Assembly (NCBI RefSeq): GCF_007992215.1
Contig: NZ_BJZV01000007.1
Span: forward strand, 124,001-188,000
DNA length: 64,000 nucleotides
Origin: Methylobacterium gnaphalii
GTDB taxonomy: Bacteria; Pseudomonadota; Alphaproteobacteria; Rhizobiales; Beijerinckiaceae
Direction of reading: 5' to 3'
The notes under the pieces were generated by a model. The model was given only the letters and a program-made list of their open reading frames with translations, did no database searches and had not been told where the DNA came from. This document shows positions 8,737 to 64,000 of this stretch, piece after piece. A program made the translations under genes and the position numbers. The number at the start of each line of letters is the position of its first letter. The stretch's first letter is position 1.

Positions 8737-9888
8737 ATGGACCAGAGAACTCCGCTCAACCTGGCCTACGACGCCGTCGCCGCCGCGCGGCAGGTCGCGG
8801 CGACCGCGGCCCGGCGCGCAGCAGAGCAGGATCGCGACGACGGCTTCCCGGCCGAGGATGTCGCCGACCTCGTTCGCCTCGGGCTGCTTGGAGCGCCGAT
8901 CCCGTCCGAGCACGGGGGCGCCGGCCTCGGTGAAGAAGCGGGGGCAGGGCACCTCGCCGAGGTGCTGCGCCTCGTCGGCTCCGGCAGCCTCGCCCTCGGC
9001 CGGGTCTACGAGGGCCACGTCAACGCGCTCCAACTCATCGCCCAGTACGCCGATGGCGGACAGCGCCGTCGTCTGTATGCGGATGCGCGCGACGGACATC
9101 TCTTCGGCGTCTGGAACACCGAGCCCCCGGAGGGTGGCCTGACGATCGAGGATGGCCCGGGCGGCCTCGCCCTGGGCGGCGTGAAGACCTTCGCCTCCGG
9201 TGCCGGCTTCGTCACGCGCGCGCTGGTCACGGGCCGGCGGCGCGGCGAGGCTGAGCCCCTGATGCTGGTCGTCCCGCTGGAGGCCGGCGCCCGTGCCGAC
9301 CTCTCGCAGTGGCGCGCGCATGGCATGCGCGCCTCGGCCACCGGCACGGTCCGTTTCGACGGCCTGATCGTGGCGGCGAATGCGGTGATCGGCGGCGCGG
9401 GCGACTACCATCGCCAGCCGGTCTTCTCCGGCGGGGCGTGGCGGTTCGCGGCGGTTCAGCTCGGCGGGATCGAGGCGGTGTTCGACGCCTGGCGCGCGCA
9501 TCTCGTGCGGCTGGGGCGGGGCGCCGACCCGCATCAGCTCGCGCGGCTTGGCGAGGGCGCGCTCGCGGCCGAGGGCGCACGGCTCTGGGTGACGCGCGCC
9601 GCCGCGATCGCCTCGGACGCCGCGCTCTCCCCGGAGCGCGGCGTCGCCTACGTCAACCTCGCTCGCCTCGCAGTCGAGAAGGCCGGTCTCGACGTGCTGC
9701 AGCTCGCTCAGCGCTCTGTGGGCCTCCAGGGTTTCCTGCGCGGGCATCCGCTGGAGCGGCTGTCGCGCGACCTCGCCACCTATCTCCGCCAGCCGGCGCC
9801 CGACCGCGCGCTCACCACGGCGGCGGCGGAGCTGCTCGCCGATGCCGCGCCGGCGGGCGAACTCTTTGCCCGTACTAGCCTGCCCTGA
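8737..9888 (+). CDS. acyl-CoA dehydrogenase-like flavoprotein
   Basis: A 383-residue protein with the three-part acyl-CoA dehydrogenase fold: an N-terminal helical domain containing LGLLGAPIPSEHGGAGLG (about residues 47-64), a central beta domain with GVWNTEPPEGGL and GGVKTFASGAGFVTRAL, and a C-terminal helical domain ending RDLATYLRQPAPDRALTTAA. The C-terminal motif resembles that of ACAD-like flavin monooxygenases and specialised-metabolism members rather than beta-oxidation enzymes; I do not see an unambiguous catalytic glutamate of the classical dehydrogenases. Its stop overlaps the start of the next gene (TGATG), so the two products are translationally coupled and probably act on one substrate. 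Confidence 0.8.
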   Translation: MDQRTPLNLAYDAVAAARQVAATAARRAAEQDRDDGFPAEDVADLVRLGLLGAPIPSEHGGAGLGEEAGAGHLAEVLRLVGSGSLALGRVYEGHVNALQLIAQYADGGQRRRLYADARDGHLFGVWNTEPPEGGLTIEDGPGGLALGGVKTFASGAGFVTRALVTGRRRGEAEPLMLVVPLEAGARADLSQWRAHGMRASATGTVRFDGLIVAANAVIGGAGDYHRQPVFSGGAWRFAAVQLGGIEAVFDAWRAHLVRLGRGADPHQLARLGEGALAAEGARLWVTRAAAIASDAALSPERGVAYVNLARLAVEKAGLDVLQLAQRSVGLQGFLRGHPLERLSRDLATYLRQPAPDRALTTAAAELLADAAPAGELFARTSLP

Positions 9889-10625
9889 TGCGCGCCGACG
9901 CGTTCCTCGCGGCCGCCGAGGCCCTGCCCTTCGCCGATCTCGACACGCTGACCGGGGGACGTGGCCTGGTCGTGGTCGCGCCGCATCCGGACGACGAGAG
10001 CCTGGGCTGCGGCGGCCTGATCGCACAGGCCTGCGCGCGGGGCCTTCCGGTCCGGCTCGTGGTGGTCAGCGACGGCGTCGGCTCGCACCCCAATTCCCCG
10101 AGCTACCCGCCGGCCCGGCTGCGGGCCCTGCGCGAGGCAGAAACCCTCGCAGCCGCAGCTGTTCTCGGGCTCTCAGCGGAGCATGTCCACTTCCTGGGCC
10201 TGCCCGACCGCCACGTGCCGGCAGCGGGTCAGGCCGCCGAGGACGCGGCCGAGGCCATTGCCGCAACGGCCCGGGCCTGCGGGGCGGGCAGCCTTTTCGT
10301 GACCTGGGGCCATGATCCCCACTGCGATCATGCGGCCTCGGCCGCTCTCGCGGCGATGGCGGTGCGGCGCCTCGGGTCGGTGCGCCTGTTCACCTATCCC
10401 GTCTGGGGCTGGACCCTGCCGGCCGAGACGGAAGTGGGGCCACCACCGCGCGGCATACGCCTCGATGTCGGCCGACAGCTCCTCACGAAGACCACTGCCA
10501 TCGCCGCGCACCGCTCGCAGACGACGAGCCTCATTGATGACGACCCGCAGGGCTTTCGGCTCGACGAGACGATGCTCGCCCGCTTCGCGCGGCCTTTCGA
10601 GATCTTTCTAGAAGCGGAAACCTGA
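9888..10625 (+). CDS. PIG-L family (LmbE-like) deacetylase
   Basis: This is a zinc-dependent N-acetyl-sugar deacetylase of 245 residues. VVVAPHPDDESLGCGG (residues 28-43) carries the metal and catalytic residues (His33, Asp35, Asp36), and TWGHDPHCDHAA in the second half supplies the further zinc histidine. Family members remove acetyl groups from GlcNAc-inositol, GlcNAc-PI, bacillithiol and mycothiol precursors, or antibiotic precursors. The ATG shares its A with the stop of the preceding dehydrogenase-like gene. It is the first of two PIG-L proteins in this window; the other lies in the inositol cluster at 54.7-55.5 kb and uses the variant PHLDD motif. Confidence 0.88.
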   Translation: MRADAFLAAAEALPFADLDTLTGGRGLVVVAPHPDDESLGCGGLIAQACARGLPVRLVVVSDGVGSHPNSPSYPPARLRALREAETLAAAAVLGLSAEHVHFLGLPDRHVPAAGQAAEDAAEAIAATARACGAGSLFVTWGHDPHCDHAASAALAAMAVRRLGSVRLFTYPVWGWTLPAETEVGPPPRGIRLDVGRQLLTKTTAIAAHRSQTTSLIDDDPQGFRLDETMLARFARPFEIFLEAET

Positions 10626-52909: not shown

Positions 52910-53956
52910 TCACGGATCGTTGGCGGCGCGCCGGCGGCGCAGGCGCTTGGCGACCTCGTAGATGCCGAGCATGGCGAGCGCCACCAGGAACGGCACGAGG
53001 TAGTAGCAGACCCGGAATAGCAGCAGCGAGCCGAGCACCTCGTCGCGCGGCAGGCTCGACATGGCGAGCATGATCGTCGCCTCGAACACCCCCGCGCCCC
53101 CCGGCACGTTGGAGGCGATGCCGAGCATGGCGGCGAGCACGTAGATCGCGACGAAGGTCGAGAAGCCGAGCGTCAGCTCGGGCGGCATCAGCACGTAGAG
53201 CACGGCGGCCGCGGCACAGACGTCGCCGATGCCTACCAGCATCTGACTGAACGAGACCGTGGCGCCCGGCAGTTCCAGCCGCCAGTGCTTCACGGTGATG
53301 TAGCGCCGCTTGATCGAGACCCAGATCAGATATCCGACCACCGAGAACAGGGCCGCGACGCCGACGCCCTGGTTCACGCGGATCGAGGTGAAGGCAAGGC
53401 CGGCGAGCTGGCCGGCCTCGACGATGAGGCTCAGGCCAAGCACCACCCCCATGCCGAGCCAGAAGGTGAAGCCGGCGATCACGGTGAGCGCCGCGATCTT
53501 CGCGGCCGACAATCCCCGGCTCGAATAGACCCAGTAGCGGATCGTCCCCGCCGTGAAGAGCGGAAAGCCAAGGGTGAAGCTCACCGCGTAGCTCGTGAAC
53601 GAGGCGAGCGCGGTGATCCGGTAGGGCATCTTCAGCTTGAGCTGCTTCAGCGCCAGCGCGTCGTAGAAGGTCAGGAAGAAGTAGCTGATCGCGACGAAGC
53701 CGAAGGCGATGCCGAGCTGCATGCCGCCGACGCCCGTGAGCGCCGCGCCGAGCTTGGCCCAGGTGATCTCCTCCGACAGCTTCCAGAGCACCACGGCGGA
53801 GGCGGCGAGCAGCAGCACGCTCGCGCAGGTGCCGATCCAGGCATAATGACGCTTGACCCAGCCCCGCTTGGGCTCAGCCGGGCTGCCGGCCTCGGCGCGT
53901 GACACGCCGATGGCCTCGCTCTCGGCGAGATCCTTCCGCTTTTCGACGAAATTCAT
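52910..53956 (-). CDS. UPF0104 / LPG-synthase transmembrane-like flippase family protein
   Basis: From the ATG at 53956 the protein has 348 residues and about eight hydrophobic segments. The first is IGTCASVLLLAASAVVLW. SYAVSFTLGFPLFTAGTIRY with YWVYSSRGLS and then NVPGGAGVFEATIMLAMSS are the landmarks of the lysylphosphatidylglycerol-synthase N-terminal domain (LPG_synthase_TM, UPF0104), a lipid-flippase-like fold. The cytoplasmic synthetase domain of MprF is missing. Such stand-alone proteins are proposed to flip lipids or glycolipids. It lies just downstream of the inositol cluster in the same direction, with 137 bp between, so it may export a cluster product; that is inference. Confidence 0.82.
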   Translation of the reverse strand: MNFVEKRKDLAESEAIGVSRAEAGSPAEPKRGWVKRHYAWIGTCASVLLLAASAVVLWKLSEEITWAKLGAALTGVGGMQLGIAFGFVAISYFFLTFYDALALKQLKLKMPYRITALASFTSYAVSFTLGFPLFTAGTIRYWVYSSRGLSAAKIAALTVIAGFTFWLGMGVVLGLSLIVEAGQLAGLAFTSIRVNQGVGVAALFSVVGYLIWVSIKRRYITVKHWRLELPGATVSFSQMLVGIGDVCAAAAVLYVLMPPELTLGFSTFVAIYVLAAMLGIASNVPGGAGVFEATIMLAMSSLPRDEVLGSLLLFRVCYYLVPFLVALAMLGIYEVAKRLRRRRAANDP

Positions 53957-54093: not shown

Positions 54094-54729
54094 CTAGGCG
54101 CGTGCATCGGCCACAAGCGCTCGCGCCTGCGCCAGTCCGGCCAGGATGCGTTCGGGAACGCTCGGAGAGGTGCAGACATAGGTCGGGCTCGGATGCGGTA
54201 CGGCGACGATCGGTAGGCCGGGGCGTAGCCGCTCCAGCGGGGCGCGGACGGCGCCGGCGAAGCGGCCCGCCAGGACGACGACCGCGAGATTGGGCAAGAG
54301 GTCGATCAGGGGCGCCAGGTAGGGCTCGGCCCATCGCTGCTCGGAGCGGCGTGGCGCGCGATTCAGCGCACCCTCGGCATGGATCACCCAGGGGACCGCG
54401 TTCCAGATCAACGTGTCGGCCCGCGCGATGCCGGCCTCGGCGAGGAAGCGGAACAGGTTGGCGGCGGTGCCGGTGGGGTTGTCGCGGGAGACGTAGCCGG
54501 TGCGGGCTATCGACGGGCCCGGCGTCTCGAGGAGCAGCAGCAGGCGCGCACCGATCCCGCCGTCGAGCGGGTCGGGGGAGGGCACCGGCGCGCCGCGCTC
54601 GGCAGCGATCCGGTCGGCCAGGTCGCGCAAGGGGCGGATATGGGCCGCGCCGGCGAGGGCATGCCGGGCGGCGACGGCGGCAGGATCGGCCAGGCTCTTG
54701 GGCGCACCCGGCTCGAGCGCCTCACGCAT
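54094..54729 (-). CDS. uracil-DNA-glycosylase superfamily-like protein
   Basis: The 211-residue product starts at the ATG at 54729, which overlaps the end of the PIG-L frame by eight bases. It has a UDG-like core: RLLLLLETPGPSIARTGYV (in place of the GEAPG motif of family 4), then TGTAANLFRFLAEAGI and the second active-site motif VPHPSPTYVCTS (HPSP, as in true UDGs). The typical Asp of the first motif is not seen, so a classical uracil excision activity is doubtful. It closes a cluster of sugar- and inositol-related enzymes, an odd location for a repair enzyme. It could have been recruited to cleave an N-glycosidic bond; that is speculation. Confidence 0.65.
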   Translation of the reverse strand: MREALEPGAPKSLADPAAVAARHALAGAAHIRPLRDLADRIAAERGAPVPSPDPLDGGIGARLLLLLETPGPSIARTGYVSRDNPTGTAANLFRFLAEAGIARADTLIWNAVPWVIHAEGALNRAPRRSEQRWAEPYLAPLIDLLPNLAVVVLAGRFAGAVRAPLERLRPGLPIVAVPHPSPTYVCTSPSVPERILAGLAQARALVADARA

Positions 54730-55474
54730 CGGGCGGCAGGGCGACGGCGAGGTGGCCGTCCAGCCGGAAGCGCTCCACCGCGCCTTCCTCGCGCAGCTTC
54801 TCCGCCAAGGCCGCGGCACCGCCGAACTGGAAGCCGATCTGCGTGGTGTAGGCGGCGCAGGCCGCGGCCTTGCGGGCCTCGCTCTGGGAGCCGAAGCGGA
54901 TCTCGAGTCCGGGGAGATGCGCGAAGGTGTGGCGCAGCGGCTCCTGCGGCTCGGCGTGACGGACTGTGTAGGGATAGTCGCGCCACCACAGCACCGGCGC
55001 CGAGGGCCGCGCGGCACGGATCGCGCGCACGACATGGACGTGGTCGACATGGCCGCCCACCGCCTGCGGCGCGAGGATCAGGTCGGGGCGCAGCACGCGG
55101 AGCAACGTCTCGAAGGCATCGGCGAGGTTCAGCTCGATGCGGTCATCGGGCCGAAGCGCGCCAAACAGCTCTGGCGGCGAGCCGTAGCCGCGATGCGGCG
55201 CCTCGCGGAACGGCAAGTGGACCGGCTCGTCGATGCCGAGATGGTGGGCGGCAGCCCGGTCCTCGTCCCGCCGCAGGGCCATGTAGTCCGCCTCGGCCGG
55301 CAGGCCCTTGTCGAGCTGGCAGGCCAGCGCGAAGTCCTTCGGATGCGCGACGGAGGCGGTGAACACCGTCGCCATCGTCACCCCCCAGCCGGACGCCGCG
55401 AGATGCGCGAGCGTGCCGCCCGCCGAGAAGACGGCGTCGTCGAGATGGGGTGAGAGGGCGAGCGCGCAGGGCAT
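54722..55474 (-). CDS. PIG-L family (LmbE-like) deacetylase of the inositol cluster
   Basis: This 250-residue enzyme begins with ALALSPHLDDAVFSAGGTLA (His10, Asp12, Asp13: the SPHLDD variant of the PHPDD zinc motif) and has HVDHVHVV (His142, His145) as the second metal motif. PIG-L enzymes deacetylate N-acetylglucosamine linked to inositol, phosphatidylinositol or other acceptors; in mycothiol synthesis MshB removes the acetyl group from GlcNAc-inositol. The GT4 gene ends 13 bases upstream, so the pair mimics the MshA-MshB step order. The ATG at 55474 is the start. The glycosyl acceptor is not known. Confidence 0.88.
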   Translation of the reverse strand: MPCALALSPHLDDAVFSAGGTLAHLAASGWGVTMATVFTASVAHPKDFALACQLDKGLPAEADYMALRRDEDRAAAHHLGIDEPVHLPFREAPHRGYGSPPELFGALRPDDRIELNLADAFETLLRVLRPDLILAPQAVGGHVDHVHVVRAIRAARPSAPVLWWRDYPYTVRHAEPQEPLRHTFAHLPGLEIRFGSQSEARKAAACAAYTTQIGFQFGGAAALAEKLREEGAVERFRLDGHLAVALPPDA

Positions 55475-55487
55475 CAGACGGCCGGCA

Positions 55488-56714
55488 TCAGAGCAGGTGC
55501 GGCTCGGCGCGGAAGCGGCACGCGGGGTCGTAGGGCAGCGCCGCGACGAAATCCGTATGCGGGCGCTCGCCGGCCACCCTGGCGTAGACGTCCATGATCT
55601 GCCGGCCGACGGCCGTCCAGGAATAGACCCGGCGGCATTCCTCCAGACCGGCCTGGGCGAACTGTGTGCGCAGATCCGCATCCTCGATCACGCGGCCGAG
55701 CGCCTGGGCGAGGGCCCGCACGTCACCGGGCTGCACCAGCAACCCGTTCTCGCCGTCGCGCAGGCAGTCCGAGACGCCGACCGAGTGGGTGGAGACCACG
55801 GCGAGCCCCGCCGCCATCGCCTCCAGGATCGTGTTCGAGAACCCCTCCGCATAGGTCGGCGACACGAAGACGTCGGCCTGCCGGTAAAGATCCGGCACGG
55901 TGTCGTAGTCGGCGTAGCCCGTGAAGGCGACGTGGGCCGAGGTGAAGCCGATCGCATCGGCCTTTTCGCGGGCGGCCTCCACGTCGGGACCGATCCCGGA
56001 AATCGTCGCCTCGAAAGGCAGTCCGGCCTCCCAGACGCGCTCCAGCGCGTCGAGGAAGTCGAGCACGCCTTTCCGGCGGTCGACGCGGCCATGATAGAGC
56101 AGCCGCACCGGGTCCTCGCCCTCGACCGGCTTGCCGGGCGTGAAGCGAGCGGTGTCGACGGCGCCGGGCACGATGGTGAAGCGGGCCGGATCCGAGCCGA
56201 GCCGGTCGCAGACCTCCTTCACGAAGGACTGGCCGCCGATCAGGAGCGCGTTGGCGTGGGCCAGTACCTCGCACATGGCGAGGCGATGCGTCTCGCAGCA
56301 GGAGCCGACCCAGTGGCCGTCGCCGCCCTGGATCGAGACCACGTTCGGTACGCCGAGCTTTCGCGAGGCCAAAAGCACGGCCCAGCCGGTGGGATAGCCG
56401 TATTGCGCATGCAGGATGTCGAAGGGCTTTCTCGCGTGCTCGGCACAGATGGTCTCGACCATCGTCTCGATGTCGCGCTCGAAATCGCCGCCCTCCTGCT
56501 CGCCGAGCTGTTCGAGGCCGATGACGTGGACGCCCGGCACGGGCGGCGGCGGGCCGCCGCCATAGACGCGGGTGCCGAATGCATCGCCACGATATTGCGA
56601 GATCATCGTGACGTCGTGACCGGCGCTGACGAGTTCGCGCAGCAGGTTCTGCGCGTAGACGCTCATGCCGGAGATCGCCGGGAAGTAGCGGCGGCTGACG
56701 AAACAGATCCTCAT
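55488..56714 (-). CDS. GT4 family glycosyltransferase
   Basis: A 408-residue retaining glycosyltransferase of the GT-B fold, the family that includes MshA and many sugar-nucleotide transferases. The N-terminal domain starts MRICFVSRRYFPAISGMSVY, with a glycine-rich acceptor loop. The donor domain has LLYHGRVDRRKGVLDFLDAL, FTGYADYDTVPDLYRQADVF and the EX7E motif (Glu290-Glu298) in EGFSNTILEAMAAGLAVVST. A donor such as UDP-GlcNAc is possible because a PIG-L deacetylase follows. The ATG shares its A with the TGA of the TIM-barrel gene. The longer upstream frame runs through that gene and is rejected. Confidence 0.92.
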   Translation of the reverse strand: MRICFVSRRYFPAISGMSVYAQNLLRELVSAGHDVTMISQYRGDAFGTRVYGGGPPPPVPGVHVIGLEQLGEQEGGDFERDIETMVETICAEHARKPFDILHAQYGYPTGWAVLLASRKLGVPNVVSIQGGDGHWVGSCCETHRLAMCEVLAHANALLIGGQSFVKEVCDRLGSDPARFTIVPGAVDTARFTPGKPVEGEDPVRLLYHGRVDRRKGVLDFLDALERVWEAGLPFEATISGIGPDVEAAREKADAIGFTSAHVAFTGYADYDTVPDLYRQADVFVSPTYAEGFSNTILEAMAAGLAVVSTHSVGVSDCLRDGENGLLVQPGDVRALAQALGRVIEDADLRTQFAQAGLEECRRVYSWTAVGRQIMDVYARVAGERPHTDFVAALPYDPACRFRAEPHLL

Positions 56715-57616
56715 CAGGTCGCGGCTCCCATCGACACCTGCGGGGCGGGCGTCTCGTGCAGGCGCTGGTCGGGGGGAGGGAGACCGGGCCCCGGCCTGCG
56801 GCAGGTCCGCAGGTATTCGAGCGAGCGTGGCACCATGAGGTCGGCGCGGTGGCTCTCGCGGGAGAGTTCGACGCAGACGAGCTTCCGGAAGTCGATCACC
56901 TCCAGCGCATCGAGCACGGAGGGCACGTCCATGTCGCCCTCGCCGAAGGGCAGATGGATATGCTCGCGCCGCTTCATGTCCTCGATCGCCACGGTGCCAA
57001 GGCGGCTGGCGAACTCCCTCACCGCAGCGGCCGGGTCGCGCTCCTCGGTGACGAGGCAATGGCCGGTATCGAGCGCCAGACGCAGGTTCGGCAGATCCAG
57101 CGCGGCATAGTCGTCGAGCGTCTCGATCAGCATGCCGGGCTCCGGTTCGAGCGCGGCGACGACGCCCTTCGCCTCGGCATAGGCCCCGACCTCGGTGAGC
57201 CCCTCGATCAGCCAGCCATGCGCGGCCTCGCGGTCGACCCCCTCCCGCGGCACGCCGGCCCAGAACGAGACGGCCTCCGAGTTCAGCACATGCGCGATGT
57301 CGATGGCGCGCTTGAGGAAGCCGACGCGCCGGGCGCGGCCCGAGGCATCGGCCGTCACCAGCGTCGGCTCGTGTTTCGCGGTCGGGTCGAGCAGGAAGCG
57401 GGCACCGGTTTCGATCACCGAGCCGAGTTCGAGCCGCTGCAGGAGCGTCGAGACGTGATCGGCCTCCACCAGCCAGTTCTCGGCGAAGGGGTCGAGATGG
57501 TGAATGTCGAGGGTCAGCGCGACGCCGTCATAGCCGGCATCCTTGATCAGCCGGATCGCGTCTTCGAGTCGGTGATGGGCCGTGCCGTTGGTGTTGTAGG
57601 CGAAGCGGAGTGTCAC
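56714..57616 (-). CDS. xylose-isomerase-like TIM-barrel sugar isomerase/epimerase
   Basis: A 300-residue TIM barrel of the AP-endonuclease-2/IolE-IolI type. The metal ligands are in order: Glu157/Glu159 (ALEPEPGM), Asp183 and His186 (LALDTGHC), His219/His221 (MKRREHIHLPFGE) and Glu250 (VCVELSRESH). Family members isomerise sugars or act on inosose intermediates, fitting the neighbouring inositol-3-phosphate synthase and Gfo/Idh genes. GTG start at 57616 overlapping the YcaO stop (GTGA). Its own stop overlaps the GT4 start. The exact reaction is unknown. Confidence 0.85.
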   Translation of the reverse strand: MTLRFAYNTNGTAHHRLEDAIRLIKDAGYDGVALTLDIHHLDPFAENWLVEADHVSTLLQRLELGSVIETGARFLLDPTAKHEPTLVTADASGRARRVGFLKRAIDIAHVLNSEAVSFWAGVPREGVDREAAHGWLIEGLTEVGAYAEAKGVVAALEPEPGMLIETLDDYAALDLPNLRLALDTGHCLVTEERDPAAAVREFASRLGTVAIEDMKRREHIHLPFGEGDMDVPSVLDALEVIDFRKLVCVELSRESHRADLMVPRSLEYLRTCRRPGPGLPPPDQRLHETPAPQVSMGAAT

Positions 57617-59220
57617 GCGCGCTTCCTCTCGGCTCGCCGGCCCTGCCGCTCGTAGCGGAAGGGCGCATGGTGGGATTCCGGCTCCCGATAGAGCGGATAA
57701 TGCGCGCCGACGATCTCCTCGGCCAGGGCCGTATCGAAGAGCGGCTGGCCGCCGAAGCGCTCGACCGCCTCGGGCGTCAGGCGCACCGGCAGCAGCGTCT
57801 CGGTCTCCTGCCCGAACTTGATCAGCGGGTGATCGCGCTCGATGAGCTTGCGCGTGTTGCGCTCGCCGATGCGGTAGTAGCTCATGGTCTCGACCTCGAG
57901 CCCAGGCACGATCGCCTTCACGATGCCGATCTCGCTGTCGCGCGGCGCGCAATCCACGTAGAGGATGTCGAAGCCGGCCTGCTCCAGCCGCTCGCGGGCG
58001 ATCTTTCCGCGCATATGGCCGTCGGCGGCGGGCGTCGTCGGCAGCTCCGAGAAACGCCTGGTCGAGCGCTCGGAATAGACGGTCTCGGCAAAGACCTGCT
58101 TCAGCTCCTCGCCGGACAGCTCGATCCAGGCGAGCATGGCCTGCAGCGCCCGGCTCTCTTCGAGGTCGAGGCTCGGCAGCGCCTTCTGGATGAAGGCTTC
58201 GACGTAGCCGGCCGGCGCGACGGTGTCGGCGAGTGCCAGCGGGCCGTGGCCAAAGGTCTTGCGCACGCGCGCCGCCTGGAACTCCAACAGCGCCTTGCGC
58301 AGCGCCCGCTCGCGGTCCGGATCGCAGGCCTCGCCGCAGGCGGAGAGGGCGACAGGGGCCGGCGCATCGGCACCGTTCTCGTCGTAGCCGACCACGTAGA
58401 GATTGGTGAGGCCGAACTGGTCGGTGGCGAATTTCGGCAGCGCCCGGATGCCGAGGCTCTTCAGGCGGTCGAGCATCCCGCGCGTCTCGGGCCCGATCCC
58501 ATCAAGGTCGAGCATCACACCCTGGTCGAGGGCACGGAAGAGCAGGCCATTGCCGTCGCGCTGGAGCAGTTCGAGCAGGCCGTGGCCGAGGGCGAAATTC
58601 GTGTCCGGGCCCGCGCCGAGGCCGTTGGTGATCAGGTTGGTGAAGGGCGTGTAGCCCGGCCGCAGCTCGAAATAGTCGGTCGCGGCGATGTCGAGCGGCA
58701 TCCAGACGCTCTCGCCGGTGCGGGGACGAACCACCGGCGTCCAGTCGAGCCTCGTCGCACGGCCGACGGGCGAGCCCGCAGGCAGGCAGAGCGTCAGCGG
58801 ATCGGCGACGCTGCCGGCGCCGAAGACGCGTACGAGATCGTCGTAGGAGACACCGGCCTGCTTCTCGCGGGGCATCACCGCGAGGGAAGGCATCAGGTTC
58901 TCGGCGATCTCGGCGACCGCTCCGATCAGAGCCTCGTCATCGGTGGCGCCGTAGCCGATGCCCGACGGCATCGCGCCGACGAAGAAGGGATCGTCGAGAA
59001 ACAGCGCCACGAACCAGACCGGGATGCCGGTGCGGTCGAGCGGCGCCAGGTTGAAGCCGACGACGCGGCCCTCGGGCAGGATGTCGAGATAGGCCTTCAC
59101 GGGATCGGGCAGGCGCTCGGGCAGCCCCTCGATCCGGCGTGGAGCCCCATAGCGGTAGCGGCGCGGCGCCTTGAGGCTGGCGTGGCGGGCGCGGTCGTCC
59201 TGGTCGATCTCGGTCGTCAC
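57613..59220 (-). CDS. YcaO domain protein
   Basis: A 535-residue YcaO protein, the family that uses ATP to phosphorylate amide backbones during formation of azolines, thioamides or amidines in peptides or proteins. The three ATP-binding stretches are visible: SGIGYGATDDEALIGAVAEI (86-105, Glu104/Glu107), NGLGAGPDTNFALGHGLLEL with LLQRDGNG (Glu217, Gln-Arg-Asp 220-222), and CGEACDPDRERALRKALLEF (295-314). The C-terminus lacks the Pro-rich PxPxP ending of TOMM cyclodehydratases. No TfuA, E1-like or ThiF partner and no precursor peptide is seen. The GTG at 59220 is the start. It is translationally coupled to the TIM-barrel gene. Its substrate is the key unknown of the cluster. Confidence 0.88.
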   Translation of the reverse strand: MTTEIDQDDRARHASLKAPRRYRYGAPRRIEGLPERLPDPVKAYLDILPEGRVVGFNLAPLDRTGIPVWFVALFLDDPFFVGAMPSGIGYGATDDEALIGAVAEIAENLMPSLAVMPREKQAGVSYDDLVRVFGAGSVADPLTLCLPAGSPVGRATRLDWTPVVRPRTGESVWMPLDIAATDYFELRPGYTPFTNLITNGLGAGPDTNFALGHGLLELLQRDGNGLLFRALDQGVMLDLDGIGPETRGMLDRLKSLGIRALPKFATDQFGLTNLYVVGYDENGADAPAPVALSACGEACDPDRERALRKALLEFQAARVRKTFGHGPLALADTVAPAGYVEAFIQKALPSLDLEESRALQAMLAWIELSGEELKQVFAETVYSERSTRRFSELPTTPAADGHMRGKIARERLEQAGFDILYVDCAPRDSEIGIVKAIVPGLEVETMSYYRIGERNTRKLIERDHPLIKFGQETETLLPVRLTPEAVERFGGQPLFDTALAEEIVGAHYPLYREPESHHAPFRYERQGRRAERKRA

Positions 59221-59250
59221 AGCTCACCCATCCGCTCGTTCCCATCCCAT

Positions 59251-59364
59251 CACCTCATCCTGAGGTGCCGGAGCGCAGCGGAGCCTCGAAGGAGGGCTCC
59301 AGCTTGGCGCGCGATCCCTGGAGCCCTCCTTCGAGGCTGCTCCGCAGCACCTCAGGATGAGGTG
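59251..59364. repeat. long inverted repeat (palindromic repeat element)
   Basis: The left arm (59251-59302) and right arm (59318-59364) are near-complementary over about 47-52 bases and enclose a 15-base loop. Each outer end itself contains the palindrome CCTCATCCTGAGG or its partner. The RNA would fold into a very stable hairpin. It occupies the 178-bp gap between the Gfo/Idh stop and the YcaO start, the only sizeable spacer inside the cluster. It has the look of a dispersed REP/RPE-type element, which should occur elsewhere in the genome. Confidence 0.85.
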
Positions 59365-59398
59365 GTCTGGTGGGATCGGCTCGCGTTTCCTCGTCCTC

Positions 59399-60472
59399 TC
59401 ACGCCGCCGGCGCCAGGGCCTCGCCGTAGGCCCGCGCCAGCAGGCGCATGGTGTGCAGGTCGCGCTCCGCGGAATAGGCCGCCCGCTCCTCCGGCCGGCG
59501 CAGGGCCGAGCCGAAGGCGCGCACCTGCTCCAGGAAGGGCGAGGCCTCCACATCGAAGGCGATGTTTTCGGAGCCGCCGCTTGTACCGTCGGTGAACGTC
59601 AACCGGCCGCCGGGCGTCTGGCCCATCGTGTCGACCGCCGTTAGCATCCCCGTGGTGCCCACCACCTCCAGGCGGCGGCGGGGGAGGACGTCCGGGCAAT
59701 TGTAGGCGACGTGGAGGTTGGCGAGCACGCCGGAACCGGTGCGGCCGATCAGCAATGCCCCGTCATCCACCGCGTAGTCCTGGGCGCGGGCCTGGGTGAG
59801 GGAGGCGATGTCCTCGATCGACTCATCGAGAAGGAAATCGCAGAGGTCGAGCCCGTGCGGCGCCAGATCGATCAGTGCGCCGCCACCCGCCTGTTGGGGG
59901 TCGATGCGCCAGTTGTCCTGGCCCTGGAACGAGGCCCAGCCCCGGTCGAGCCAGCAGGCATAGACGATGCGAACCGCCGTCACCGTGCCGAGCCGGCCCT
60001 CGCGAATGCAATCGCGCATGGCGCGATGCGCGGGGTGATGGCGCTGGTCGAAGGCGGTGCCGTAGAAGATGCCGGCGCGCGTCACGGACGCCGCCATCGC
60101 CTCCGCGTCGCGGAGCGAGGCCGCCATCGGCTTCTCGCAGAGGATCGCCTTGCCGCTGGCGGCAAGCGCCTCGACGGCAGCGCGGTGGAGATGGTTCGGG
60201 GTGGCGACGTAGACCGCCTCGACCTCCGGCTCGGCAATCAACCCGGCGATGTCGGCATGCGCCCGCGCACCCTCGGCCTCAGCCGCCGAGCGGGAGGCCT
60301 CGCCCGGATCGGCGACGGCAACGAGGCGATGGCCGGCGGCGCGGATGCCCGGCGCCATGTAGTCGCGCGCGACCCAGCCATAGCCGACGATGCCCCAACC
60401 GACCGAGTCCCCCTCCATCGCACTCTCGCGCGACGGACCGGCCTGCACTTCGTCCGACAGTGCCTCGGCCAT
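59399..60472 (-). CDS. Gfo/Idh/MocA family NAD(P)-dependent oxidoreductase
   Basis: A 357-residue dehydrogenase of the inositol-2-dehydrogenase/glucose-fructose oxidoreductase family. The cofactor motif is WGIVGYGWVARDYM (Gly30, Gly32), and ILCEKPMAAS (113-115) is the EKP motif whose lysine is catalytic. IDLAPHGLDLCDFLL in the C-terminal beta-sheet domain supplies the conserved His region. Inositol dehydrogenases and related inosose or sugar dehydrogenases share this form, which agrees with the inositol-3-phosphate synthase in the cluster. The ATG at 60472 overlaps the stop of the methyltransferase gene by one base; an ATG at 60418 (MEGDSVGWGIVG) is an alternative start. Confidence 0.9.
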   Translation of the reverse strand: MAEALSDEVQAGPSRESAMEGDSVGWGIVGYGWVARDYMAPGIRAAGHRLVAVADPGEASRSAAEAEGARAHADIAGLIAEPEVEAVYVATPNHLHRAAVEALAASGKAILCEKPMAASLRDAEAMAASVTRAGIFYGTAFDQRHHPAHRAMRDCIREGRLGTVTAVRIVYACWLDRGWASFQGQDNWRIDPQQAGGGALIDLAPHGLDLCDFLLDESIEDIASLTQARAQDYAVDDGALLIGRTGSGVLANLHVAYNCPDVLPRRRLEVVGTTGMLTAVDTMGQTPGGRLTFTDGTSGGSENIAFDVEASPFLEQVRAFGSALRRPEERAAYSAERDLHTMRLLARAYGEALAPAA

Positions 60473-61656
60473 CACCAGCGCTCCGGCAGGTCGACATATT
60501 CGCGCCGGCGCACCCGCTCGGCGAGCGGCGTCTGCAATGCGCCCTCCCATTCGAGCTGCTTCGGGCCTTCGGAATGCAGCGGGTAGGTCACCCGTCCGGC
60601 ATATTCGGCCGCGTAGCGCTCGGAGGGCCAGCGGATGGCGTAGGCCCCGCTGAGATCGACCTTGTAGAGCGGGTTCAGGCGCAGGGCGGTGCCAGCGGGC
60701 GGCAGCGTGATTCCGTCGACCACCGAGCGTGGGGCCGGGCGCATCCCCGGGCCGGCCACCAGCGAGAAGGCCTCGCAGGACTTGATCGCGTGCGGGTCGC
60801 GCGGCGTCGGTGCTCGGGCCTCGACCAGCGCCCGGGTAAGCTCGGCATCGTCGTAGACGAGGGCATCGGGAAACAGCTCTTCGATCTCGGAGGCCGTCAC
60901 GGCCTTCCCCGCTGAGAAGCCGGGGCAGTCGCTGTTGTGGATGTGGCTCATCGCCAGCCAACCATCCTCGCCGGCCGTCCGGCGCAGGTTCGCCAGGATC
61001 CCGGCCTTATCGTCGAGGAAATAGAAGGCGTCGTTGCACAAGACGAGATCGACCGGCGCCTCGGCGATCGGCCAATGCGGCGAGGAGGCGTCGAAGCAGA
61101 CGAGCTGCGCGCCTTTCTCGACCACCCAGTGACGCGCGACCCAGAGCTTGGCGAAGACGACGTCGGCGCCGGCAACCCTTACGCCGCGCGTCTGCATCTC
61201 GCGCAGGTAATGGCCGATGCCGCAGGCGAGCTCGAAAGCGCAGGCTGGCTCGTTCCAGTGCGCCTCGAGCAGGGTGAGCCCGGCGAGATAGGTCGGGTCG
61301 CTCCAGCGGTTGACGAAATAGTCGCCGACACGGCCCCAGCCGAGCGCGTCGACCGCCTCGCGCAGCGTGGCGGTGTCACGGTTCGCGATGAGATGGCGCA
61401 GGGCGTCCGGATCGGCGGGCGGGCCGTTCCACCAGTCGTCCTGGTCGGCGAGCAGGCCGGCGAGCGCCGCATCGGTCTCGCCCGCATCGAGATGGGCGAG
61501 GGTCGCCGCGACCAGCTCGGCCCGGTTGATGCGCAGATACGGGATGCCGTCGATGACCGGCCAACGCTGGCCGGTCTCGGCATCGCGCAGGGCATGCGCG
61601 CCGTCTGCCTGCAACGGGTTGCCGGTCTCGGGCGAGAGGAGTTCGAACGGGATCAT
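60472..61656 (-). CDS. class I SAM-dependent methyltransferase with a Trm112-like N-terminus
   Basis: A 394-residue protein. The first ~45 residues (LLSPETGNPL, then WPVIDGIPYLRI) resemble the Trm112/UPF0434 module (CPxxxGPL...YPIRDGIPxML) but lack its zinc cysteines. The Rossmann domain has motif I FELACGIGHYLREMQTRGVR near residue 143, then VAGADVVFAKLWVARHWVV and LVLCNDAFYFLDDKAGILAN (motif IV). A C-terminal domain of about 140 residues follows. It probably methylates a sugar, cyclitol or other small molecule made by the cluster. The start is the ATG at 61656; the gap to the HD-like gene upstream is 31 bp. Confidence 0.82.
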   Translation of the reverse strand: MIPFELLSPETGNPLQADGAHALRDAETGQRWPVIDGIPYLRINRAELVAATLAHLDAGETDAALAGLLADQDDWWNGPPADPDALRHLIANRDTATLREAVDALGWGRVGDYFVNRWSDPTYLAGLTLLEAHWNEPACAFELACGIGHYLREMQTRGVRVAGADVVFAKLWVARHWVVEKGAQLVCFDASSPHWPIAEAPVDLVLCNDAFYFLDDKAGILANLRRTAGEDGWLAMSHIHNSDCPGFSAGKAVTASEIEELFPDALVYDDAELTRALVEARAPTPRDPHAIKSCEAFSLVAGPGMRPAPRSVVDGITLPPAGTALRLNPLYKVDLSGAYAIRWPSERYAAEYAGRVTYPLHSEGPKQLEWEGALQTPLAERVRRREYVDLPERW

Positions 61657-61687
61657 GACCGGATGATAGGGCAGCGGCGGCCGGACT

Positions 61688-62608
61688 TCACGGGATCCGC
61701 ATGTCCCTGAGCACCCGATCCTGGAAATCCTTCACGGGGCCGGCATGGACCAGCTCCATCTCGCCGAGCACCGTGTCCATGGTGAGCGAGGCGGCGCGCA
61801 GGTGCTGGGCGATCTGCAGCACACGATCGATGGAATCGGCAGCGTGGAAGGCACGGCCCTCCGCCGTCGCATCATCGGGCAGGATGGCACGGGCCCGGCG
61901 CACGGTCTCGCGCAGGCCCGGCTCCAGCTCGTTGAGCGCACGCTCCGAGCAACGCTCGACGATCGGCCAGAGATGGTCGCCGAGCAGCATCTCGCCGGTG
62001 AAGCCGGCATCGGGCATCAGCGCATTGTGGAAATGGTGCGCCATGGAAGCGAGAAAGACCACCGCCGGGTCGGCCCGGTAGAACGGGCTCAGCACGACGC
62101 CGTAGACCGCCACGATCAGGCAATGCTCGGCATGGTTCTCCGGCGGCTCGAGCAGGATCCTCGGCTTGCCGGGGCAGGTCACCCCGGCCCGCGGCTGCCC
62201 CGCTTGTGCCGCGACGAAGTCCGGCACCATGCCAACCGGCAGCGCCGCGACCGGCGCCTCGAGATGACTGCGCAAGCGCTCACGCAGAACATGATCGACG
62301 TGTTCAGTAACGGCGTCGAAGCCGGCGACGAGCACGGCGGAGGCCTGCTCGTCGTCGAGGCCGGCCGCGTTGAGGAAGGCGCCGTCGATATCGCAGAGGC
62401 GCGTGGCCGCCACGGCGTTTGCCGTCACCTGGAATGCCACCGTCTCCGGCGAAGCCCCGCCGGTGAGAGCGCCCCATCCCTGCGCGAACAGCCGCTCGGC
62501 AATCGACCCAGTTCGCCCTGCGGAGCGGACGCGCTTGAGATCGCCGAGTTCGACGAGAAGCTCTCGCAGGTGCAGGGGCGCGGCGGGAGCCGTACCCTCG
62601 CTCGACAT
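61688..62608 (-). CDS. HD-superfamily-like protein of unknown function
   Basis: A 306-residue protein of helical composition. It contains ENHAEHCLIVAVYGVVLS (His159/His162), FLASMAHHFHNALMPD (His191, His192, His194), GDHLWPIVERCSERA (Asp211, His212) and FHAADSIDRVLQIAQH (His255, Asp258, Asp261). The order of spaced histidines and the terminal HxxDxxD-like helix fit the HD fold, but the central HD pair reads HH/HN. HD proteins include phosphohydrolases and also diiron oxygenases such as myo-inositol oxygenase, which is a natural partner of inositol. Neither function can be chosen from sequence alone. The ATG shares its A with the TGA of ino1. Confidence 0.55.
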   Translation of the reverse strand: MSSEGTAPAAPLHLRELLVELGDLKRVRSAGRTGSIAERLFAQGWGALTGGASPETVAFQVTANAVAATRLCDIDGAFLNAAGLDDEQASAVLVAGFDAVTEHVDHVLRERLRSHLEAPVAALPVGMVPDFVAAQAGQPRAGVTCPGKPRILLEPPENHAEHCLIVAVYGVVLSPFYRADPAVVFLASMAHHFHNALMPDAGFTGEMLLGDHLWPIVERCSERALNELEPGLRETVRRARAILPDDATAEGRAFHAADSIDRVLQIAQHLRAASLTMDTVLGEMELVHAGPVKDFQDRVLRDMRIP

Positions 62609-63798
62609 CAGTTCACGCCGAGCCAGTCGAGCAACATCTTCTGCTGCTTACCGAAATCGTGGACCGGTCCGGCGCCGTTCTTGACCATCGGCGCCTTGAA
62701 GAAGGTCGAGAGCTGCTCCTGCGCGCCGCTGTCGCCACGCTGCTTGGCGAGGTCGAGCACGCGAGCAATCTCGATGACGAGCGGCGCCGCCAGGATGGAA
62801 TCCTTGCAGAGGAAGTTCACCTTGATCTGCATGCGCTGGCCCATGAAGCCGGTGACGTCGATGTTGTCCCAGGCTTCCTTGTCGTCGCCGCGCGGGCGGT
62901 AATAGTGGATGTGCACGAGGTGGTCCTCGACCGGATAGCCGAGGATCGAGTCGAGCACCGTGCCCTTGGTATTGATCTTCGACTGCAGCGAGGACGGATC
63001 GTTCAGAGCGAGGCCGTCGCGGTTGCCGAGGATGTTGGTCGAGAACCAGCCATCGACATGGAGCGCGCGGGCTTTCAACGCGGGCGCCAGCACGGTCTTC
63101 ATCATGGTCTGGCCGGTCTTGCCATCCTTGCCGGCGACCGGGACGCCGAGTTCCTTGGCGAGGTTCAGCAGCGCCGGCACGTCGGCGGCGACACTTGGAG
63201 TGAAGTTCGCGTAGGGCACGCCGCTCTTGATCGCTGCATAGGCGTAGAGCATGGCCGGCGAGATTGACTCGTCGTCAGTATCGAGACCCTTCTCGAAGGC
63301 ATCCGTGGAGTTCAGCACCGCGGCCGTGAGGTCGGGCCAGCGCTCGGTCGAGGCGAGGTTGACCACGACGACCTCGTCGAGGTTGCTCTCTTCCCGGAAG
63401 CGCTTGAGATCTTTAGCGATGATGGAAACCGTCTCGCGGTGGTCCTTCGCGACGATGCGGTTGCCACCCTCGATGTTCTTACAGAACTTCGCGCTGCCGA
63501 CGGCCGGCCACGGGGTGATGCCCTTGAGCACCTGAGCGCCATTCTCGATGTCCTGCTTCGTCAGCACGCCGTGACCGGTTGCAGCCGATGCGAGGTCGTC
63601 GCCGTTGAGATCCCATCCGCCGAAGACGAGATCCTTGTAGTCGGTCATGCCCTGAACCGAGAGGCCTGCGAGCGGAAGTCCGTCGAGCCGGTTCGATCCG
63701 GATTTGATCATCTCGATGCCGGCGATGGCGGTGGTGGCGACAGCGCCGCCCATGCCAACGAACGCGACGCCAACGCGGCGACCGGTCTGCATACTCAT
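62608..63798 (-). CDS. ino1: inositol-3-phosphate synthase
   Basis: A 396-residue NAD-dependent isomerase that makes 1D-myo-inositol 3-phosphate from glucose 6-phosphate. Rossmann motif VAFVGMGGAVATTAIAG near residue 13 replaces the usual GGxxGxxG variants; GWDLNGDDL and KFCKNIEGGNRIV are seen. The catalytic region has GKDGKTGQTMMKTVLAPAL and WFSTNILGNRDGLALND, the signature of the MIPS C-terminal domain. The start is the ATG at 63798; earlier in-frame codons run into the promoter region. Inositol synthesis is uncommon in alphaproteobacteria outside special lipids or signalling compounds. It is the first gene of the cluster and its stop overlaps the HD-like gene start. Confidence 0.93.
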   Translation of the reverse strand: MSMQTGRRVGVAFVGMGGAVATTAIAGIEMIKSGSNRLDGLPLAGLSVQGMTDYKDLVFGGWDLNGDDLASAATGHGVLTKQDIENGAQVLKGITPWPAVGSAKFCKNIEGGNRIVAKDHRETVSIIAKDLKRFREESNLDEVVVVNLASTERWPDLTAAVLNSTDAFEKGLDTDDESISPAMLYAYAAIKSGVPYANFTPSVAADVPALLNLAKELGVPVAGKDGKTGQTMMKTVLAPALKARALHVDGWFSTNILGNRDGLALNDPSSLQSKINTKGTVLDSILGYPVEDHLVHIHYYRPRGDDKEAWDNIDVTGFMGQRMQIKVNFLCKDSILAAPLVIEIARVLDLAKQRGDSGAQEQLSTFFKAPMVKNGAGPVHDFGKQQKMLLDWLGVN

Positions 63799-64000
63799 CG
63801 GGGAAGAACTTTCTCTCTGATCGCGCAGCGGGCTCGATGGGTTGGCCCCTCGGCCCGTTACAACTGGGTCACCCGGGGACCGTTCCAAGGCAGAGGTGCC
63901 ATGTTTTGCGTGAACGGCACCTGACCGATCGCCGCATCAAACGTTAATAAACAGTAAAAACAGTGCGTTAACGCAGCATTAACGCCGCCACGTTCGGATC
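63799..64000 (-). promoter_or_regulatory. upstream region of the inositol cluster
   Basis: The 202 bp to the right edge contain no gene. From 63935 the sequence is AT-rich (runs of A and TTAA-type steps) and includes GCGTTAACGC, a perfect 10-bp palindrome, at 63965-63974. This is the expected position for the cluster promoter; I cannot define its boxes with certainty. Confidence 0.4.

Follow-up and report, generated by a model that had tools for sequence, protein, structure and literature searches.

A recurrent YcaO-containing gene cluster of Methylobacterium that may direct an inositol-aminosugar pathway

YcaO proteins are known mainly as peptide-altering enzymes, and the Methanocaldococcus jannaschii relative thioamidates McrA. 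We analyzed a 64,000-nucleotide (nt) stretch of Methylobacterium gnaphalii DNA (contig NZ_BJZV01000007.1, positions 124,001 to 188,000; hereafter the window), in which a YcaO gene lies within a run of nine minus-strand genes, all pointing in one direction (window positions 54094-63798). The encoded proteins belong to the Ino1, HD, methyltransferase (MT), Gfo/Idh, YcaO, TIM-barrel (TIM), GT4, PIG-L, and UDG families. The cluster probably specifies one pathway to a small methylated, oxidised inositol-aminosugar metabolite, finished by a YcaO enzyme acting on no peptide. If so, YcaO enzymes have a second role, on sugar-cyclitol substrates, within a conserved pathway.

Parts of the cluster recall described systems. 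The mycothiol pathway likewise has an Ino1-type enzyme, a GT4 protein related to inositol-phosphate glycosyltransferase, and PIG-L, and a candidate phosphatase is present here; the cluster differs in adding MT, Gfo/Idh, TIM, YcaO, and an MBL-fold protein described below, and in a PIG-L nearer to glycopeptide deacetylases. The bacillithiol pathway has the same GT4 and PIG-L pairing (our GT4 profile matched a BshA chain at 7.9e-26, and the BshB1 model gave 33 of 182 bits), whereas our cluster contains a cyclitol synthase and no BshC was among the operon's families. Inositol catabolism (IolG, IolE, IolI) shares Gfo/Idh and TIM-barrel partners, but the window's operon would build inositol, not degrade it; assignment to that system was rejected, with IolG at 98.6 of 355 bits and IolE at 22.9 of 290, both far below cut-off. 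The initial annotation, made from the letters of the window, knew of no characterized pathway with this set, and none turned up in our literature search, which had most subscription papers and all preprints outside its scope.

Conservation and distribution of the gene set

Relatives of YcaO were collected from named genomes by a scan that relied on two short peptide patterns and is thus not exhaustive; 253 relatives were confirmed, of which 80 were kept as loci (denoted L) and 173 were not. We defined the core as eight families (Ino1, HD, MT, Gfo/Idh, YcaO, TIM, GT4, and PIG-L) encoded on the same strand no more than 9 kb from the YcaO start. All eight were present at 61 of the 80 loci, seven at 7, and one to six at the remaining 12, at several of which the contig ends. 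The complete core was found at 31 of 32 Methylobacterium loci and 30 of 48 other loci, so that the co-occurrence proposed as a check on the initial annotation was borne out. That annotation had grouped nine genes; eight do form one set, but UDG, on the same strand near YcaO at 31/32 Methylobacterium and 15/48 other loci, is accessory to it. The common order is Ino1-HD-MT-Gfo-(MBL)-YcaO-TIM-GT4-PIG-L, with YcaO placed after PIG-L at L066 and L068. As gene order and direction recur across phyla, the cluster is more than a chance arrangement. Mean column identity of GT4 across phyla was 72%.

Pseudomonadota hosts of the kept loci were Acetobacteraceae/Roseomonadaceae, Skermanella, Aerophototrophica, and Methylobacterium; further hosts were Myxococcaceae, Rubrobacter and another actinobacterium, Isosphaeraceae, and Gemmataceae. 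The eight families occur together in Pseudomonadota, Myxococcota, and Actinomycetota, and partial sets were found in Planctomycetota and on a Bacteroidota plasmid. The Hymenobacter record lacks MT, has Gfo annotated in two pieces, and carries an unannotated GT4 that was recovered by tblastn. Gfo/Idh is split over two frames, by decay or sequencing error, both on this plasmid (L042:12102-13150) and on the Rubrobacter marinus chromosome (L086:7994-9021).

An alignment of the HD protein, used as a second bait, matched 11 of 250 genomes from the order of Lichenicoccus roseus. YcaO and MBL genes lay nearby at all 11 sites, 8 of which had all nine families. Seven of these sites each had nine families; five were the YcaO loci L049, L041, L060, L068, and L050, and two were new. 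The other four were L066, L059, L061, and L091, with all nine families at L091 only: L059 and L061 lack Ino1 in the cluster, and L066 lacks both Ino1 and TIM. L185, one of the seven sites, differs in that its YcaO and MBL genes stand apart, on the far side of Ino1.

YcaO orthologues (76-100% identity) were found in 58 of 59 sampled Methylobacterium genomes. The exception, G012, is an assembly of about 500 contigs, so the absence of a YcaO match may be a gap; the MBL gene is present there. No YcaO was found in seven genomes of other genera of the family (G100, G140, G204, G292, G309, G341, and G693). At an E-value of 1e-10, the order sample gave matches in 11 of 297 genomes, comprising 6 Methylobacterium and 5 remote proteins (29-33% identity), and at 1e-15 the phylum and class samples gave YcaO only in Methylobacterium (6/398 and 2/289, respectively). 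Five plasmid records matched YcaO with at least 80% coverage; those listed were two Methylobacterium replicons, Roseomonas haemaphysalidis, and Hymenobacter volaticus, and exactly the same four records were returned for the HD protein. Almost all sampled genomes of Methylobacterium, a leaf genus, carry the cluster, so its product ought to be within reach.

This pathway seems to have escaped genome mining. We found the cluster in Dankookia rubra JCM 30602 (L063), Roseomonas vastitatis CPCC 101021 (L067), and, without Ino1, Lichenicoccus roseus KEBCLARHB70R (L061). A survey of Acetobacteraceae type strains names these three strains and gives Roseomonas mucosa as the sole species with a YcaO-encoding cluster (PMC8776678).

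The MBL-fold gene is a tenth member of the pathway set, displaced outside the cluster in Methylobacterium. It lies near YcaO at 43 of 48 non-Methylobacterium loci and at none of the 32 Methylobacterium loci; the window's genome carries it on a different contig (C6:24625-25488, E 3e-109), and it was present in 59/59 sampled Methylobacterium genomes, including the one without YcaO. The best PDB matches of the protein are PqsE-type (8e-4), and C8, C11, C23, and C26 are invariant. Neither this gene nor the promoter motif upstream of Ino1 figured in the initial annotation.

The YcaO enzyme and a candidate inositol-aminosugar route

The window's YcaO belongs to the superfamily by PF02624 (150.4 bits against a gathering score of 25.7), and its profile matched M. 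jannaschii MJ1094 at 1.6e-26. The predicted model (predicted local distance difference test, pLDDT, 89.9) aligned with M. jannaschii YcaO (6peu) at a VIA Z of 30.2 over 365 residues (root-mean-square deviation 3.3), and with LynD, TruD, McbD, and E. coli YcaO at 24.4, 22.8, 20.8, and 17.5, respectively. Across 26 sequences, E104, E107, E217, R221, E313, and R318 were invariant, and they align with M. jannaschii YcaO; these are presumably ATP ligands, and such a pattern is compatible with ATP hydrolysis or phosphotransfer. The protein shares the fold and the acidic/Arg pattern of MJ1094, LynD, TruD, McbD, and E. coli YcaO but, unlike them, has no TfuA and no C-terminal PxPxP and is encoded in a cyclitol-glycoside operon. 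PF07812 gave no match in the window's genome and did match the Methanosarcina acetivorans control, and a TfuA-YcaO thioamidation system was rejected for lack of TfuA. The SagD-type (TOMM) model TIGR03604 scored 81.4 of 219.25 bits, below cut-off. The operon leaves no room for a precursor peptide except in its 178-nt gap, small open reading frames (ORFs) outside the operon not having been searched.

In the inositol-aminosugar pathway that we favor, the product and all enzyme activities are those we infer, and the order of the chemical steps is guesswork. Ino1 would convert glucose-6-phosphate to inositol phosphate, to which GT4 would add N-acetylglucosamine (GlcNAc) in the manner of MshA. The HD protein would take off the phosphate, and PIG-L the acetyl group, leaving a free amine. 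Gfo/Idh might then oxidise one ring hydroxyl, the TIM protein isomerise or dehydrate the resulting ketone, and MT methylate the result. YcaO, perhaps together with the MBL-fold protein, would spend ATP on phosphorylating the oxygen of a carbonyl (or vinylogous amide), which an amine or sulfur would replace to give a C=N or C=S group; its substrate would be a sugar-cyclitol, not a peptide.

The initial annotation had proposed a GlcNAc-inositol front end with Ino1, MshA, and MshB roles, which held in part. Apart from BshA, the GT4 profile matched D-inositol 3-phosphate glycosyltransferase 7qsg (1.4e-26), PimA (1e-24), and 3c4q, which we take to be MshA (1e-24 to 1e-27), although Tll1590 was the best match (2.8e-32); inositol-phosphate and malate glucosaminyl transferases are thus among its relatives. 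The MshB role was not supported: the nearest relatives of PIG-L are glycopeptide deacetylases (1e-28 to 1e-29, one at 1.7e-28), and TIGR03445 gave 16 of 224.35 bits. As for the other enzymes, Gfo is nearest to 1,5-anhydrofructose reductase (7.3e-57) among solved structures. The TIM protein matched UlaE first (2.5e-10) and IolE more weakly (1.8e-6), so that isomerase and dehydratase are not distinguished. None of the nine proteins exceeded an NCBIfam cut-off among the matches listed (for GT4, the best 25 of 43).

The same front end could serve a mycothiol-like low-molecular-weight thiol or thioamide cofactor, in which YcaO would replace MshC and add sulfur or a cysteine-like unit to a glucosaminyl-inositol scaffold. 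The Ino1/GT4/PIG-L trio, the kinship of YcaO to archaeal YcaO in sequence and fold (the archaeal thioamide role being general background), and the near-fixed presence in Methylobacterium (58/59) speak for this. We nevertheless regard it as quite improbable, because PIG-L is not MshB-like, the genome has no TfuA, the operon has no sulfur-delivery gene, and Gfo, TIM, and MT would be left with no obvious role. Mycothiol itself was rejected. The best match to the MshC model TIGR03447 in the window's genome reached 273.7 bits against a cut-off of 485.1, consistent with the absence of MshC noted at first, in a model that matched in all 14 control genomes but exceeded its cut-off in one only. The MshA equivalog TIGR03449 (81.3 of 462.5 bits) and the MshB model were also below cut-off, Ino1 reached only 44.7 of 638 bits with the mycothiol INO1 model, and MshD was not among the operon's families, no genome search for it having been made.

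Oxidised, methylated cyclitol-aminosugar chemistry would also suit an antibiotic or signal of the pseudodisaccharide kind, built by kasugamycin-like logic, in which YcaO would form an amidine on the amino sugar. The resemblance of PIG-L to antibiotic deacetylases fits this, and the two to three tandem YcaO copies of some myxobacteria suggest that products may vary. An antibiotic cluster in 58 of 59 sampled genomes of one genus would be unusual, however, and among the flank genes scanned, a small hand-picked set, no transporter recurred between lineages; we therefore consider it improbable. Myxobacterial loci have one to three YcaO copies in tandem, with three at L075:260-4848 and two at L076:5193-8196 within the cluster.

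Another product was considered, if tentatively, and we think it rather unlikely: the polar UVA-absorbing compound or compounds of phyllosphere Methylobacterium, namely methylobamine or a relative. To build a mycosporine, a six-membered ring has to be oxidised, dehydrated, methylated, and given an amine at the expense of ATP. Here, inositol would be oxidised by Gfo and dehydrated by an IolE-like TIM protein to an enolic cyclohexenone, MT would O-methylate it, and YcaO would join an amine by phosphorylating the vinylogous oxygen, as the ATP-grasp enzyme MysC does. Such a route would parallel the Mys pathway in forming a ring, methylating it on oxygen, and condensing it with an amine by means of ATP, and at L071 a DHQS-family cyclase replaces Ino1; in contrast, the window's operon has no DHQS-family cyclase or ATP-grasp enzyme, and Ino1 is present in most loci. 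No MysA-type DHQS cyclase or MysC-type ATP-grasp was among the operon's Pfam and NCBIfam matches, the rest of the genome not having been searched. In a 2017 study the UVA-absorbing isolates were reportedly all Methylobacterium, and the compound highly polar. Many of the cluster's host bacteria are pigmented, and the names of several hosts besides Methylobacterium suggest air, crust, lichen, or leaf habitats (Skermanella aerolata, Roseomonas aerilata, Aerophototrophica crusticola, and lichen metagenome-assembled genomes, MAGs). Methylobacteria are said to make UV-absorbing compounds including methylobamine (PMC9664959, PMC12573535). Among the papers listed, none named genes for methylobamine, and the link draws on distribution and chemistry. 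Soil myxobacteria carry the cluster too, which counts against a sunscreen. The cluster has genes of the spore photoproduct lyase family in its vicinity at L041 and L086 (over cut-off) and L071 (partial match); with three loci and no control for chance, we do not take this to prove a role in UV protection. The Roseomonas plasmid locus has two adjacent genes of this family (L041:19819-21940), one over the TIGR03886 cut-off. Should the cluster make a sunscreen, the UVA absorber reported from Methylobacterium would be a direct candidate product, and the route would be a second, independently evolved one to mycosporine-like compounds, begun by Ino1, ended by a non-peptide YcaO, and common to light-exposed bacteria of five phyla, probably by transfer.

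The L071 cluster (Isosphaeraceae) lacks Ino1 and TIM. Its HD gene adjoins, with a 4-nt overlap at the chosen HD start, a gene for a DHQS-family protein (L071:682-1809; NF004852, 463.6 against 333 bits), which by eye we take to be an EboD-like cyclase and which was in no other locus examined. The joint loss, shared with L066, is only a hint of a link between Ino1 and TIM; an Ino1-family gene lies elsewhere in this genome. Among 45 genomes of its order, only the L071 genome itself matched.

Regulation and evidence against the favored pathway

Upstream of Ino1, GGAAC-N16-NGTT was found in 41 of 52 Methylobacterium regions at positions -88 to -112, whereas the motif (with N16 or N17) occurred in 40 of 4300 random 300-nt windows, mostly coding, from the same loci. 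Among 48 distinct Methylobacterium upstream regions, 45 contained GGAAC and 38 had GTT at one spacing, compared with 4 regions for the next most frequent spacing and 28 of 9600 shuffled copies. Six other distinct regions had GGAAC-N16-CATT, and four of the rest were one-base variants at the same spacing. As the spacer is only 56% conserved, the motif does not reflect mere sequence closeness; the near-100% conservation of the boxes is circular, the sequences having been chosen for the motif, and the weight rests on the frequencies and on anchoring by GGAAC only. Promoters of M. extorquens EcfG are given as GAAC-N16,17-C/GGTT (PMC4814048). The -35 box and spacing fit this consensus, but in 37 of 38 regions GTT is preceded by A, where the consensus has C/G, so the sigma factor is not proven. 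The Methylobacterium operon is probably driven by an extracytoplasmic-function (ECF)-type promoter, possibly of general-stress type, and a product under such control would probably be protective.

Several results weigh against the inositol-aminosugar pathway. The full EcfG consensus was present in 1 of 48 distinct upstream regions, the motif was found at 0 of 34 non-Methylobacterium loci, and a promoter shared with the displaced MBL gene was rejected (0 of 30 MBL upstream regions). Of 12 genomes searched for Ino1, 5 gave no match (those of L053, L059, L061, L062, and L066); of these, L053, L059, and L061 keep TIM. Phosphatase action of the HD protein is doubtful, as HH replaces HD and Asn stands where a weak alignment puts Glu; its conserved residues are H162, H191-H192, D258, and D261 by an alignment to solved HD proteins that is itself weak (E 0.0041). 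The HD model (pLDDT 91.6) has HD phosphohydrolases such as YfbR as its nearest fold neighbors, which speaks for the pathway, with VIA Z of 10.5 to HDDC2, 9.8 to YfbR, and 6.8 to OxsA, but a Z of about 10 can reflect an arrangement common in helical proteins; Foldseek returned no match under E 0.001. Oxygenase chemistry was also considered for it (PhnZ, Foldseek probability 0.28).

Further points concern YcaO. Over 39 representative loci, the distances of families other than YcaO correlated pairwise at rho 0.45-0.87, and at 0.67-0.87 among Ino1, HD, MT, Gfo, GT4, and PIG-L, which speaks for one pathway; YcaO tracked seven other families poorly (rho 0.29-0.43), and correlated with MBL at 0.71 over pairs without Methylobacterium. 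The YcaO tree splits at a weakly supported deepest fork (69/31) into two groups, of which one takes in Methylobacterium, Skermanella, Aerophototrophica, the actinobacteria, and Hymenobacter, and the other the Roseomonas-type, myxobacterial, and L071 proteins; L062, L064, and L069 carry YcaO with no cluster. Given the two groups and these cluster-free copies, the YcaO step may be exchangeable or independent of the others. Taken further, YcaO might modify a protein or RNA and share the operon for regulation only, as its separate evolution, its solo copies, and the McrA activity of the M. jannaschii relative would allow; with its position between Gfo/MBL and TIM kept in most loci of several phyla, we find this very hard to credit.

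Solo YcaO copies of Roseomonas type lie near an MdoH-like glucosyltransferase gene at L064:9953-13224 and L069:3910-7886. L064 shares its isolate name with L091, and L069 with L085; judged by name, each of these MAGs appears to contain a solo copy alongside a full cluster whose YcaO is of the other type.

Layout of the locus and neighboring genes

The nine ORFs were confirmed at the coordinates first annotated, all on the minus strand, and each family label was matched by Pfam, for HD only through a hit below cut-off (Table 1). The overlaps described between genes are found at five of eight junctions: TGATG at Ino1/HD, MT/Gfo, and TIM/GT4, 4 nt (GTGA) at YcaO/TIM, and 8 nt at PIG-L/UDG. HD/MT and GT4/PIG-L are separated by 31 and 13 nt, and Gfo/YcaO has the sole gap longer than 31 nt, at the spot that the MBL gene occupies in many other lineages; its palindrome looks like an inserted repeat element.

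Table 1. Coordinates of the cluster and adjoining features in the window
Feature	Position	Strand	Detail
Candidate ECF-sigma promoter, GGAAC-N16-AGTT	63862..63886	-	88 nt upstream of Ino1 start
Ino1, myo-inositol-phosphate synthase family	62608..63798	-	PF07994 1.4e-64, PF01658 9.8e-35
HD-fold protein, candidate phosphohydrolase	61688..62608	-	PF13023 0.0034, below cut-off
S-adenosylmethionine (SAM) methyltransferase (MT)	60472..61656	-	PF08241 1.5e-10
Gfo/Idh/MocA oxidoreductase	59399..60472	-	PF01408 1.1e-23
178-nt gap with long palindrome	59221..59398		folding energy -114 kcal/mol
YcaO ATP-dependent enzyme, 535 aa	57613..59220	-	PF02624 1e-43
Xylose-isomerase-like TIM barrel (isomerase, epimerase or inosose-dehydratase type)	56714..57616	-	PF01261 7e-34
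GT4 glycosyltransferase	55488..56714	-	PF13692 1.6e-34
PIG-L/LmbE deacetylase	54722..55474	-	PF02585 1.3e-19
UDG-superfamily protein, accessory	54094..54729	-	PF03167 1e-9
LPG-synthase-TM/MprF-flippase-like membrane protein, downstream of cluster	52910..53956	-	NF033480 3.7e-60, yet 204/600 bits

The flippase-like gene downstream was found in 50 loci, with no non-Methylobacterium locus among those listed. It adjoins the cluster in Methylobacterium as MdoH-like genes adjoin many Acetobacteraceae clusters (with MdoG at L072), and such neighbors would suit an envelope glycolipid or periplasmic glucan head group that they move. The neighbors vary by lineage, however, and were not seen in the Actinomycetota and Myxococcota stretches examined, and the core has no lipid-transfer enzyme; an envelope product thus seems to us a poor prospect. 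In Acetobacteraceae, a GalE-like NAD-dependent sugar epimerase gene follows the cluster at L061:12621-13631, L059:15023-16078, and L068:9021-9998, and the sugar donor may differ at these loci, two of which lack Ino1. Away from the cluster, a PIG-L-like HPDDE motif also occurs in another ORF of the window (9888-10625).

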